A stretch of 64,000 nucleotides of DNA from Treponema sp. (GCA_009777735.1 WRLF01000004.1:1-64000), one strand, 5' to 3'. Positions 49,677-63,324 are shown, numbered from the stretch's first letter. Program-made: numbers and translations. The notes: a model not told the origin generated them from the sequence alone.

Positions 49677-51881
49677 ATGTTTGGAAAAAAATGTTTAATT
49701 TCACTGTTCATCGTTAGCCTGCTGTTTGTATGTTTATCCGGCTGCCCGGGATCTCCCGAAGGAAGTCCCCCGGCCGGCGGTACTGTCCCGTCAGCGCACA
49801 CGGGAGTATTAATTAAAATGACGGCGCATAATGCCGCTTACGCAGACATTGCCAACAATTCGGGGATGAGCGGTAATGGAGAGCGTATCCATTTGCATAG
49901 TAACAATACGGCGCACATGTACGCCGGCCAGCAGCAGGATTTTATTTTTGACATAGGCCATATTGACCAGTTGGGCGAAATGCATGTCTGGAACTACAAT
50001 GCTGCCGCCGGAGCGCACGGCCTGCAGCGGGTTATCGTTTCTTTTTCCAACGATAATGAAAACTATACGGAACTGGATGTATTTACCCTGGCACGGGCCG
50101 ACGGAAATGACCGGCTGGAAGCTACAAACCTGTCAAACGGTATGGTCATCAACTTTAGGGGAAGAAGCGCCCGGTATGTAAAAATAACCCCCCAGACAAA
50201 TTATGGCGGCGGCCAGTGGGGGTTAAGCGAAGTAAAGTTGTACCGTTACCGGAACGCCGTATACCGGGGTGCATATTTGCAGGGCTCGCCAGTGTACCGG
50301 TTAGCCGATCCGCCGGAAGCAAATTATTATAACCTGGCAAACGGCGCAGGCCTGTCGCACCCGACAAACCCGCAGGCCCGGCATGACAATAACCCTGCCC
50401 ACATGTTTTTTACCATGGGTTCGAACAGTTCGTTTGAGATAGACCTGCAGGGGAGGTACCCCGTCCAATCAATAGTAATCTGGAATTACAATGCTCCCGG
50501 TTTAACCGCACGGGGCATGCAATCAGTCACAATAAGCACATCGGATGATTTAACAAACTGGACAACACGGGTGACAAACGCAGCTATTGCCGCAGGAACC
50601 GGTCAAAACGGCATGGGACCCTCTGCAACCATTCCGGTTAATTTCACGGCCCGGTATGTCAGAATAAGCGGGTCAAGCATCGGAGCGGCGCTAACCGGAC
50701 TGTCCGCAGTCCGTTTTTATGCCGGCGATGGCTGGTATGCCGAATATCTTCCCGACTGGACAGCGTTGTTTTCCAATTACAACGGCTGGATAGGCGCAGA
50801 CGGCATTTACTCAACAAAACTTGATGCAAACAATACGATCTTTATATTTTCCGATACATGGACGGGAACAGTCAACCCGGTAACCGCTTTGCGGACAGAG
50901 CGGACCATGATCAACAATACCCGCGGAATCCTTTCCGGCAATGTCCCGCTTGCCACAAAAATGACATTCTCGGCGGCATCGCGGAATGATACCAGTAATG
51001 TAATAACACCTGTCAACCAGCCCGGCCGCTGGTACTGGCTGGGCGATGTTGTGGTTATCGGCAATAAGCTGTATATATACACGGTTACCGTAGCGAGCGG
51101 CGGCGGCGGCGGCGCATTTAATTTTTCACAGGTCGGCGTTGATCTTGTAAGGTTTGATATTGTTAACGGTACGGTTAATCAGTCATCGCTGACCAGATTC
51201 AGGGACGAAAACCGCCGCCTTGCCGACTCCTCCGCCGGTACGAGTGACCCCAATCCCCGGTGGTATCTGGGGGCAGCATTATTTGAAAATACCGCAGAAC
51301 ACGGCGCGCTAAAACCGGACGGGTATATTTATGTGTACGGTTATTTAGACGGGCATGGAGCAGGCGACCGCAGGCTCATTACCGCACGGGTTAAACCGGA
51401 AGATATCGAAGATTTTACAAAGTACGAATACTTATGGAACAACGACACATGGAGAGTGGGCGAACCGTGGGGCGCATCCCTGACAAACCCAAAATCTTTA
51501 GGCGTCGGTTCTACAGAATTCAGCATTCATGAAGTAAAATCCGGGCCGAATACCGGCAAATTTATGAGTATAATGATGCCGTATTTCCAGGATATGCGAA
51601 TCATGGCAGCCTATGCCGATACCCCGGCAGGCGTTTTTTCCGCCATGGAACCGGTTTTCTTTGCCACCGATCCTCCCATTACCCTGCCGAATGACGGCAC
51701 CATGTATGTGTACAACGGAAAAGCGCATCCGGCGATTTCAACCAACAATGAATTAATCATTTCGTACAATACAAACTGCATGGGCGGACTGGAAGGCCAG
51801 GGAGATATTTACCGGCCCCGGTTTATCCGTTATGCGCAGGTACCGTTGTCAGCATCGCGAGCAGCAGGAGAAGTATATTGA
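49677..51881 (+). CDS. Lipoprotein, two discoidin-like domains plus DUF5005/DUF4185-like propeller (paralog 1, divergent)
   Basis: Lipobox LSGC; ARYVKITPQTNYGGGQWGLSEVKLYRYR; NPDGYIY-type block KPDGYIYVYGYLDG; MYVYNGKAHPAISTNNELIISYNTN. Confidence 0.8.
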   Translation: MFGKKCLISLFIVSLLFVCLSGCPGSPEGSPPAGGTVPSAHTGVLIKMTAHNAAYADIANNSGMSGNGERIHLHSNNTAHMYAGQQQDFIFDIGHIDQLGEMHVWNYNAAAGAHGLQRVIVSFSNDNENYTELDVFTLARADGNDRLEATNLSNGMVINFRGRSARYVKITPQTNYGGGQWGLSEVKLYRYRNAVYRGAYLQGSPVYRLADPPEANYYNLANGAGLSHPTNPQARHDNNPAHMFFTMGSNSSFEIDLQGRYPVQSIVIWNYNAPGLTARGMQSVTISTSDDLTNWTTRVTNAAIAAGTGQNGMGPSATIPVNFTARYVRISGSSIGAALTGLSAVRFYAGDGWYAEYLPDWTALFSNYNGWIGADGIYSTKLDANNTIFIFSDTWTGTVNPVTALRTERTMINNTRGILSGNVPLATKMTFSAASRNDTSNVITPVNQPGRWYWLGDVVVIGNKLYIYTVTVASGGGGGAFNFSQVGVDLVRFDIVNGTVNQSSLTRFRDENRRLADSSAGTSDPNPRWYLGAALFENTAEHGALKPDGYIYVYGYLDGHGAGDRRLITARVKPEDIEDFTKYEYLWNNDTWRVGEPWGASLTNPKSLGVGSTEFSIHEVKSGPNTGKFMSIMMPYFQDMRIMAAYADTPAGVFSAMEPVFFATDPPITLPNDGTMYVYNGKAHPAISTNNELIISYNTNCMGGLEGQGDIYRPRFIRYAQVPLSASRAAGEVY

Positions 51882-51933
51882 AAATTGCAGAAAAATGTTG
51901 AAATACATTGAAAACAATTGAAATATATACAGT

Positions 51934-61065: not shown

Positions 61066-61077
61066 TGCGGGGGTCAA

Positions 61078-63324
61078 ATGATAATGAATAAAACAGTGCG
61101 TACAATTGCAGTCATGACCCTGCTGGCGGCTTTGTTATCATGCGGGACAGGCACGCCGCGGCGGATAACATCATCCGTTCCCGTGCCGTCTCCCAGTTTC
61201 CCCCTGGAACTTGTGCAGTTAACACCGGCAGACCCGGCGTATGTCTCCATCACAAATAATTCGGGGATGAGCGGCTCACCGGTGGGAAACATCCATTTCC
61301 ATAACAACCGCCCCGCAGACATGTATGCGGGCGAAATACAGGATTTTATTTTTGACATGAACCGCACAGAGCAACTGGGGAAAATGAATGTCTGGAACCA
61401 TAACGCCGGCGCCGGAGCAAACGGTCTGCGCGATATTACCGTTTCATTTTCCGAAGATAATGTGCAGTACACAGAACTGGGCAGTTTTACCCTCAAACAG
61501 GGCGGCGGAACGGCAACATTGTCGGCAACAAACCTTGTTGACAATTCCATCATCGACTTTAACGGGGCATCAGCCCGGTACATTAAAATTGCTCCCGAAT
61601 CAAATTACGGCGGCGAACAATACGGCCTCAGCGAAATACGGCTTTCCCGTTACCGCCATGCCGTATATCAGGGCTCATATATTGGCTCTACCCCCATTTT
61701 TGATTTACGGGGAAGGCTGCCCCCGGCCGAAGCGTCAAACCTGACGAGCGGCGTCGGCCTGTCGCATCCCACAAGTGCGGATGCCCAGCACAGCAATGAG
61801 CCTGCCCACATGTTTACCGTTTCGGGAAGACAGGGATCATTTGATATTGATACGCACGGAAGATACCCGCTTCAAAAAATCGTAATCTGGAATTATAACG
61901 AAGCGGGAAATACCAACTGGGGCCTGGAATCAATCACGGTACGGCTTTCAGATGATCTTGAAAACTGGACAACATTCATTTCCAATACGGCCATTCCTGC
62001 GGGAACCGGCCAGAACGGAATGGGACCGTCGGTTACCATTCCCATGAACAATGAAGCAGCCCGGTTTATCAGAATATCCGGCGCGAACAGAGGCGGCCCG
62101 AATGCCGGCTTAAGCGCCGTCCGGGTTTATGTCGGGGAAGGCTGGTTTGCCGACCGCGCCACAGACTGGACAGCGTTGTTTTCCGTTTATCCTACATCCA
62201 ATTCAGAATGGGCAGGAGCGGACGGGGTATTTTCCGTCAACCTGGATGGCAGGGACTTTAATCCTGCCAGAAGACCGGAAGACAGAAAAACACTGTGGAC
62301 ATTCCAGGATTCGATAACTTCACGGGTGAATCCCATAACCGCAGCCCGGATGGGTTTCGGTATGCCGAATAACACCCGCGCCGTCCTGACCGGCAACCCC
62401 CACCACCTCAACCTGACATTCAATACAGAGGCGATAAAGCCGGACCCGCCCGTCCCCCACCAGTTTTACTGGATTGGCGACAACTTTGTTGTCGGCGACA
62501 AATTGTACATCCTGGGCGGTAAAGTTGACAATTCAACCGGCGGCGAATGGGGATTCTTCGGCGTCGGCAATGATTTGGCGCGGTTTACCATCGTGAACGG
62601 CGAAATTGATGAATCGTCTTTAATCATTTTTAATGACGCAACGGAGGGAAGGTATCTCTCGAATTCGACAGCATCACCGGGCCAGCGGGGAAATTCCGAC
62701 TGGGGCGTAGGCAATGCGGTATTTGAAAATACCGTACAAAACGGCGCCATTAACCCGGACGGGTATATTTACCTGTACGGTGTCGCCAGCGTTCCCGCCG
62801 GTCAGTTTCCCGCCCGCAGGCTCATTGTCGCCCGCGTTCAGGAAGCGAATGTGGAAGATTTCACAAAAATCGAGTATTATTGGAACGACAATACATGGCG
62901 CAATGAACCCTGGGGAAAATCAGTCACAAACCAGAAATACTTAAATCCGGGCAATCAAACGCAGTTTGCCGGGGAATGTAGCATACACCAGATGCAATGG
63001 GGACCGGACAGGGGTAAATTTTACCATGTGTATATGGACACCCAGTTTTTTGACCGGTGGCTCCGCGTCAGGGTTGCCGATTCCCCCTACGGCGATTTTA
63101 CTGATATGAGGCGGATTTTCTTTGCAATAGACCCGTTCATGTCGATTCCGCCCGAAGGCCACAAAGACATGTATACGTACAACGGAAAAGCACATCCGTC
63201 AATTTCCCCCGAAGGCGAATTGATCTTGACGTATAATACAAACGGCGGCGAGGCCATGTTTGCAGACATGTACCGGCCTCATTTTGTCCGTTATGCAGTT
63301 GTGCCGCCTGCACCGGCCAATTAA
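61078..63324 (+). CDS. Lipoprotein, discoidin-like + DUF5005/DUF4185-like (paralog 4)
   Basis: Lipobox LLSC; ARYIKIAPESNYGGEQYGLSEIRLSRYR; AGECSIHQMQWGPDRGKFYHVYMDTQFFDRWL; YNGKAHPSISPEGELILTYNTNGG. Confidence 0.8.
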   Translation: MIMNKTVRTIAVMTLLAALLSCGTGTPRRITSSVPVPSPSFPLELVQLTPADPAYVSITNNSGMSGSPVGNIHFHNNRPADMYAGEIQDFIFDMNRTEQLGKMNVWNHNAGAGANGLRDITVSFSEDNVQYTELGSFTLKQGGGTATLSATNLVDNSIIDFNGASARYIKIAPESNYGGEQYGLSEIRLSRYRHAVYQGSYIGSTPIFDLRGRLPPAEASNLTSGVGLSHPTSADAQHSNEPAHMFTVSGRQGSFDIDTHGRYPLQKIVIWNYNEAGNTNWGLESITVRLSDDLENWTTFISNTAIPAGTGQNGMGPSVTIPMNNEAARFIRISGANRGGPNAGLSAVRVYVGEGWFADRATDWTALFSVYPTSNSEWAGADGVFSVNLDGRDFNPARRPEDRKTLWTFQDSITSRVNPITAARMGFGMPNNTRAVLTGNPHHLNLTFNTEAIKPDPPVPHQFYWIGDNFVVGDKLYILGGKVDNSTGGEWGFFGVGNDLARFTIVNGEIDESSLIIFNDATEGRYLSNSTASPGQRGNSDWGVGNAVFENTVQNGAINPDGYIYLYGVASVPAGQFPARRLIVARVQEANVEDFTKIEYYWNDNTWRNEPWGKSVTNQKYLNPGNQTQFAGECSIHQMQWGPDRGKFYHVYMDTQFFDRWLRVRVADSPYGDFTDMRRIFFAIDPFMSIPPEGHKDMYTYNGKAHPSISPEGELILTYNTNGGEAMFADMYRPHFVRYAVVPPAPAN

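Follow-up and report, generated by a model that had tools for sequence, protein, structure and literature searches.

A 64,000-nucleotide stretch of Treponema sp. DNA (GCA_009777735.1 WRLF01000004.1:1-64000), which we call the window, opens contig C4 of a genome of 2.69 Mb in 39 contigs, 83% complete. Four related genes in it belong, with six more on contig C7, to a family that is most aptly seen as an array of surface glycosidases related to GH183 and restricted to one lineage. We put at roughly 70% the probability that the ten proteins are surface-located, glycan-degrading lipoprotein hydrolases related to GH183, with a role resembling that of a polysaccharide-utilisation locus (PUL). This reading is drawn, at the level of sequence, from invariant catalytic residues, Pfam and fold matches, lipoprotein signals, gene runs confined to one strand, and esterase and beta-mannosidase partners; surface location and enzymatic activity are both predicted. 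The window copies are as follows.

49677..51881, + strand: copy 1, predicted lipoprotein, two discoidins followed by a propeller of GH183-like type (18-residue spacing of the catalytic Asp pair)
52029..54308, + strand: copy 2, architecture as copy 1 (Pfam, alignment)
54312..56555, + strand: copy 3, architecture as copy 1 (Pfam, alignment)
61078..63324, + strand: copy 4, architecture as copy 1, sister to C7:56808 (Pfam, alignment, tree)

An earlier note on the window had described a four-copy family with paired discoidins and a DUF5005/DUF4185-like domain, its first three members adjacent and the fourth set apart by three genes. The four open reading frames (ORFs) at 49677, 52029, 54312 and 61078 are confirmed, as is their layout, with copies 1-3 contiguous and copy 4 beyond three intervening genes; the count of four holds for the window, whereas the genome has ten, the other six lying on the minus strand of C7 (56808-75498). 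Pfam bears out the order of two F5/8-type-C (discoidin) domains followed by a C-terminal DUF4185/DUF5005 domain. Set against the curated cut-off for DUF4185 (PF13810, 39.5 bits), copies 1-3 score 42.7, 41.7 and 47.2 and copy 4 falls just below at 36.9; on C7, the copy at 73363 exceeds the cut-off and some others are under it. For DUF5005 (PF16396, 29.6 bits), copies 2 and 4 score 40.4 and 40.8, copy 1 remains below at 23.3 and copy 3 has no match. The other window copies align end to end with copy 4 at 50-56% identity, and copies 1-3 are 50-58% identical to one another. The motifs that had been quoted as shared stand as consensus forms and are not identical in every copy: copy 1 has GGGQWGLSEVKLYRYR and KPDGYIYVYG, and copy 4 has GGEQYGLSEIRLSRYR and YNGKAHPSIS. 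A lipoprotein signal, scored by eye on the N-termini of the ten copies, is present in nine.

The C-terminal domain is read as a GH183-type glycosidase with a five-bladed propeller fold. A search of PDB sequences with the ten copies gave 4hbs as the only match (E 2e-11), and a Foldseek search with a domain-only structure model gave 4hbs (1.2e-16), the GH183 enzyme EndoMA1 (8ic1, 2.7e-11; 8hhv, 5.1e-11) and, from 5e-6, GH43 and others. In EndoMA1, Asp33 is the nucleophile and Asp51 the acid/base, both being essential along with Glu243, and Arg198 holds the sugar at subsites -2/-3 (PMC10509167). The counterparts of the three carboxylates, D382, D411 and E633 in the numbering of copy 4, are conserved in ten of ten copies and, across an alignment of 33 family rows, in 33, 33 and 32 rows, respectively. 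Glu243 was matched to E633 by numbering; the equivalence of the Asp pair rests on the family alignment and on an 18-residue Asp-Asp spacing that is preserved in copy 1, because the N-terminal half of EndoMA1 cannot be aligned directly.

If the proteins are glycosidases, the two N-terminal discoidin (CBM32-like) modules would hold the glycan and the GH183/DUF5005 propeller would cut it by retaining catalysis, with D382 as the putative nucleophile, D411 as acid/base and E633 in a supporting role. Acyl groups would probably be stripped off by the GDSL esterases encoded beside the copies, a barrel protein may let the fragments in, and exo-enzymes in the cytosol, among them a beta-mannosidase encoded on C7, would finish the degradation, making the whole a spirochaete counterpart of a PUL. 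Ancestral genes would have given rise to copies of several specificities before they came to be divided, as now, between two clusters that each adjoin a tRNA gene.

Several points weigh against the glycosidase reading. Arg198 of EndoMA1 has no clear equivalent in the alignment; with the carboxylates kept, this implies that the cutting machinery is retained and that the binding site probably differs. The structure models are moderate, with a mean pLDDT (predicted local distance difference test) of 71 for the domain-only model and 69 for the other, and their input alignment had only ten rows. The copy at C7:73363-75498 has no signal peptide and may be truncated or cytosolic. Neither cluster has a SusC/D pair among its annotated genes; in its stead there are a barrel protein and, farther downstream on C4, genes for an ATP-binding cassette (ABC) transporter. 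Promoter and terminator scans of the clusters gave results at chance level only; both clusters form tight one-strand runs, and co-transcription of their genes is predicted.

DUF4185 corresponds to GH183, whose characterised members are endo-D-arabinanases, and D-arabinan is the only GH183 substrate that we found described (PMC10115798, PMC10509167). The company that these genes keep may point elsewhere. An SGNH-fold or SASA esterase recurs with mannose-related genes at four loci, the latter being a beta-mannosidase on C7, GH38 genes on C4 (20-25 kb downstream of the cluster), two GH92 genes and a GH130 gene in Bacteroides finegoldii, and a mannose-6-phosphate isomerase gene in Hymenobacter; in the two foreign loci inspected, the DUF4185/DUF5005 gene stands with such an esterase, SusC/D and mannose-related genes. 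All four loci were chosen for holding the gene, so the pattern is only a hint, and no demonstration, that the substrate is an acylated glycan containing mannose. It is a tentative proposal, conceivable but short of probable, that the ten proteins and their kin in Bacteroidota and Actinomycetota form a separate GH183-related family (DUF4185 plus DUF5005) acting on such a glycan and not on D-arabinan, which would make the ten a surface toolkit of enzymes.

It is unlikely that the ten are true GH183 endo-D-arabinanases directed at actinobacterial wall D-arabinan (arabinogalactan, lipoarabinomannan) or at D-arabinose-bearing surface glycans of gut microbes. The characterised DUF4185/GH183 members do have that activity (PMC10115798, PMC10509167), the catalytic triad is conserved and the genome has a GH172 gene (E 2e-97). 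This gene, however, lies away from the copies on contig C33, unlinked to both clusters; no GH116 was found above cut-off in this 83%-complete genome, and the linked GH172/GH116 exo-enzymes of a D-arabinan locus were found at neither cluster. With GH116 unfound and GH172 unlinked, the idea of a D-arabinan pathway is unsupported. Moreover, the substrate-binding Arg198 is not conserved, and the affinities of the ten are with proteins of Hymenobacter, of the DUF5005 type and, going by sequence signature, of the Nonomuraea type; the canonical spirochaete DUF4185 proteins lie apart from them.

The GH172 gene on C33 adjoins a GH42 gene and a sulfosugar-type catabolic cluster. A single run there (L066, 7427-14985) contains a sulfoquinovose-isomerase-like gene, a class II aldolase, an RpiB-like isomerase, an acylating sulfoacetaldehyde dehydrogenase-like gene (550 bits, cut-off 600), a succinate-CoA-ligase-like pair and a DASS anion carrier; the set resembles a sulfosugar pathway of the sulfo-transketolase type, except that an aldolase stands in the place expected for a transketolase.

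Comparison with known systems places the family beside several relatives. The GH183 endo-D-arabinanases (EndoMA1, 8hhv/8ic1; DgGH4185a/b; Mycobacterium tuberculosis AraH2, 8an0) share with it the DUF4185-type five-bladed propeller, two catalytic Asp residues with a third essential Glu, a secreted or lipoprotein form and several copies per locus; unlike them, the Treponema family has two N-terminal discoidins, ten copies and a hybrid DUF4185/DUF5005 profile, besides the differences in Arg198 and in GH172/GH116 linkage. The Bacteroides DUF5005 proteins (BACOVA_04882, PDB 4hbs; B. finegoldii UHF62_RS11350) give the best structure and sequence match to the catalytic domain, but at about 25% identity and with no discoidins in the gene inspected; the B. 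finegoldii protein, encoded in a PUL with GH92, GH130, an SGNH-fold esterase and SusC/D, has Gln at the third carboxylate. The nearest foreign homologues found, at 31.5%, are a plasmid-encoded pair of Hymenobacter sp. DG25B (PK28_RS17720, RS17730), which share the YN(A/G)KxHxxLS...ELxISYNVN and RPRFI signatures and have an acetylesterase gene between the two copies, but which are single-domain proteins, two in number, in a SusC/D-type PUL. Canonical spirochaete DUF4185 proteins, one in each of 33 other genomes of the phylum, have the same catalytic residues in those aligned, yet they are single-copy, single-domain proteins of about 360 residues, nearly all from other orders, on a separate branch (100/100).

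Also unlikely is a purely glycan-binding role, in which the proteins would be adhesins or antigen-like surface proteins with a dead propeller scaffold, and their diversity would serve attachment or the evasion of immunity or phage. Two discoidins per protein, many divergent copies and surface lipoprotein signals would agree with such a role, whereas the invariance of three catalytic carboxylates in ten of ten copies at about 50% overall identity, and the operon-like company of esterases and a beta-mannosidase, argue against it, as does the absence of any sign of recent sequence exchange between copies. The gene-conversion test that the earlier note had proposed found a longest exact shared run of 31 nt and no 60-codon window above 82% nucleotide identity, and strong recent conversion is not supported. 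Four-fold degenerate sites agree at 31-54% between copies, compared with 26% expected by chance, the highest value (0.54, copy 1 versus copy 2) being slightly raised; synonymous sites are near saturation, and the duplications are therefore old.

In the tree of the ten, copy 4 and C7:56808 are sisters (support 100/100, 65% identity), copies 2, 3 and 4 group with C7:56808 and C7:63329 at 98/98, and copy 1 falls with the remaining C7 copies; a clade of window copies only is rejected by the approximately unbiased (AU) test (p 6e-77). As the window copies are not a clade and copy 4 has its sister on C7, the family had diversified before the present two-cluster layout arose, and simple tandem copying in place does not account for the ten. 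A recent history in which one surface gene was duplicated locally in tandem and a cassette came to lie between copies 3 and 4 is very improbable, and refuted in that form by the tree: copies 1-3 are indeed adjacent and 50-58% identical, but the window copies are non-monophyletic, copy 4 pairs with a C7 gene, synonymous sites are near saturation and the cassette shares modules with its flanking genes. The proposal of repeated duplication with diversification of a surface protein thus survives in part, in the single clade and the nine lipoprotein signals, and loses the local-tandem history that it implied.

Against foreign sequences the ten copies form one clade (100/100), nearest to the two Hymenobacter plasmid proteins and one Bacteroides DUF5005 protein and separate from the DUF4185 proteins of the 33 other phylum genomes. 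Independent acquisition from different donors is therefore unsupported, and among the foreign relatives that could be reached we did not find each copy nearest to a different genus. With few foreign sequences sampled and the root placed at the midpoint, the tree does not allow a donor to be named.

The family is absent from all 39 congeners sampled, twelve of which are at least 90% complete, and from every other genome of a 393-genome sample of the phylum, ten of which give weak, partial matches to shorter proteins. Peptide-pattern scans of genome contigs found no full-length relative, although few patterns were used and the absence is weak evidence; two planctomycete loci match the discoidin part only, the catalytic domain being absent from both genomes. 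Phage records hold no family match, and the main text of two spirochaete papers mentions neither GH183 nor CBM32 (PMC13067680, PMC11481507). Horizontal acquisition, of old date, is likely, and loss from all congeners would be less economical. The C7 cluster is flanked by mutL and murB, and in the congener G035 the mutL-murB interval is about 2.8 kb and holds a different lipoprotein gene, a regulator gene and tRNA-Gln; conservation of both flanks speaks against contamination as the source of the contig. Each cluster follows the 3' end of a tRNA gene (tRNA-Glu for C4, tRNA-Gln for C7), and this position, together with the absence from relatives, fits a tRNA-borne genomic island. The tRNA-Glu 3' end has no repeat of at least 14 nt elsewhere on C4 up to 123 kb, and the tRNA-Gln and tRNA-Leu ends have none of at least 12 nt, so that the search yielded no att repeats; profiling, which covered cluster genes and part of the flanking genes, turned up no integrase. 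Base composition shows nothing unusual.

The remaining features of the C4 neighbourhood are these.

40214..43873, + strand: secreted GH2 exo-beta-D-glucosaminidase-like protein with two discoidins (PDB 2vzo, E 1e-63)
43897..43968, + strand: tRNA-Glu(ctc), the cluster lying downstream of its 3' end
45239..47428, + strand: GDSL/SGNH esterase lipoprotein with C-terminal repeat modules (PF13472, E 9e-28)
47440..49665, + strand: second GDSL/SGNH esterase lipoprotein with repeat modules (profile and paralogy)
56649..57821, + strand: 390-residue lipoprotein whose repeat/C-terminal module also occurs in the GDSL genes and in C7:59916 (32-35% identity, E 1e-19 to 3e-28)
57917..59398, + strand: 493-residue lipoprotein with no family match, its signal peptide common to 56649
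59485..61065, + strand: outer-membrane-barrel-like protein of 526 residues, a porin candidate from its signal peptide and sequence character only
63397..63996, + strand: small lipoprotein, 59% identical to the next gene, C4:64023

From 45239 to 64631 all main genes read in the + direction and are separated by 3-147 nt, and an Rfam scan across the cluster matched the tRNA alone. Whether the GH2 gene, which is upstream of the tRNA and has discoidins of chitosanase type (PDB 4zy9, E 7e-21), belongs to the same system as the copies is uncertain. The three genes before copy 4 had been called an unrelated cassette, a description that fails in part, since the module of 56649 has matches in the C-terminal module of each GDSL gene and in the N-terminal portion of C7:59916. 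The two GDSL genes are 49% identical. The full-length form of the first is confined, among the genus genomes searched, to the source genome, and its repeat modules are genus-wide: 13 congeners match part of the protein, mostly through the repeat module, which sits in large proteins of several of them; a resident module has thus become joined to genes otherwise unique to the species. The barrel protein has no convincing relative among the 39 congeners. In congener G035 a 1935-codon open frame (C39, about 6971-10861) contains many copies of the GDSL-type repeat module.

Toxin-antitoxin-like gene pairs bracket the C4 cluster, at 44470-45100 (- strand; RelB/MazF-like by eye) and at C4 64726-66290 (+ strand; UPF0175-like with a DUF3368/PIN gene, plus Phd/RelE-like). 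Adjoining the ABC transporter genes is a large DUF5696 ORF region (C4 78558-83918) with overlapping long ORFs, possibly a frameshift or a misassembly.

The C7 cluster consists of nine genes on one strand, 2-31 nt apart with one overlap, among them a GH2 beta-mannosidase (PDB beta-mannosidases, E 6e-146). GDSL esterase genes are present here as on C4, but the C7 GDSL gene is short, having lost the repeat module, which is found instead on the neighbouring glycosidase C7:59916-63326, a 1136-residue fusion of the module with the discoidin-propeller unit and a plain case of module shuffling. A fragment resembling a BspA-type leucine-rich repeat protein lies 5' of C7:73363.

Spirochaetes are abundant in the gut, and little is known of their outer surfaces or of how they take up glycans. 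What looked like a duplicated surface protein makes better sense as an array of enzymes, and its ten members offer natural variation for learning which substrates, other than D-arabinan, are cut by the DUF4185/DUF5005 propeller. A ten-member family confined, in our sample, to one species would exemplify the acquisition of a niche function followed by its expansion.

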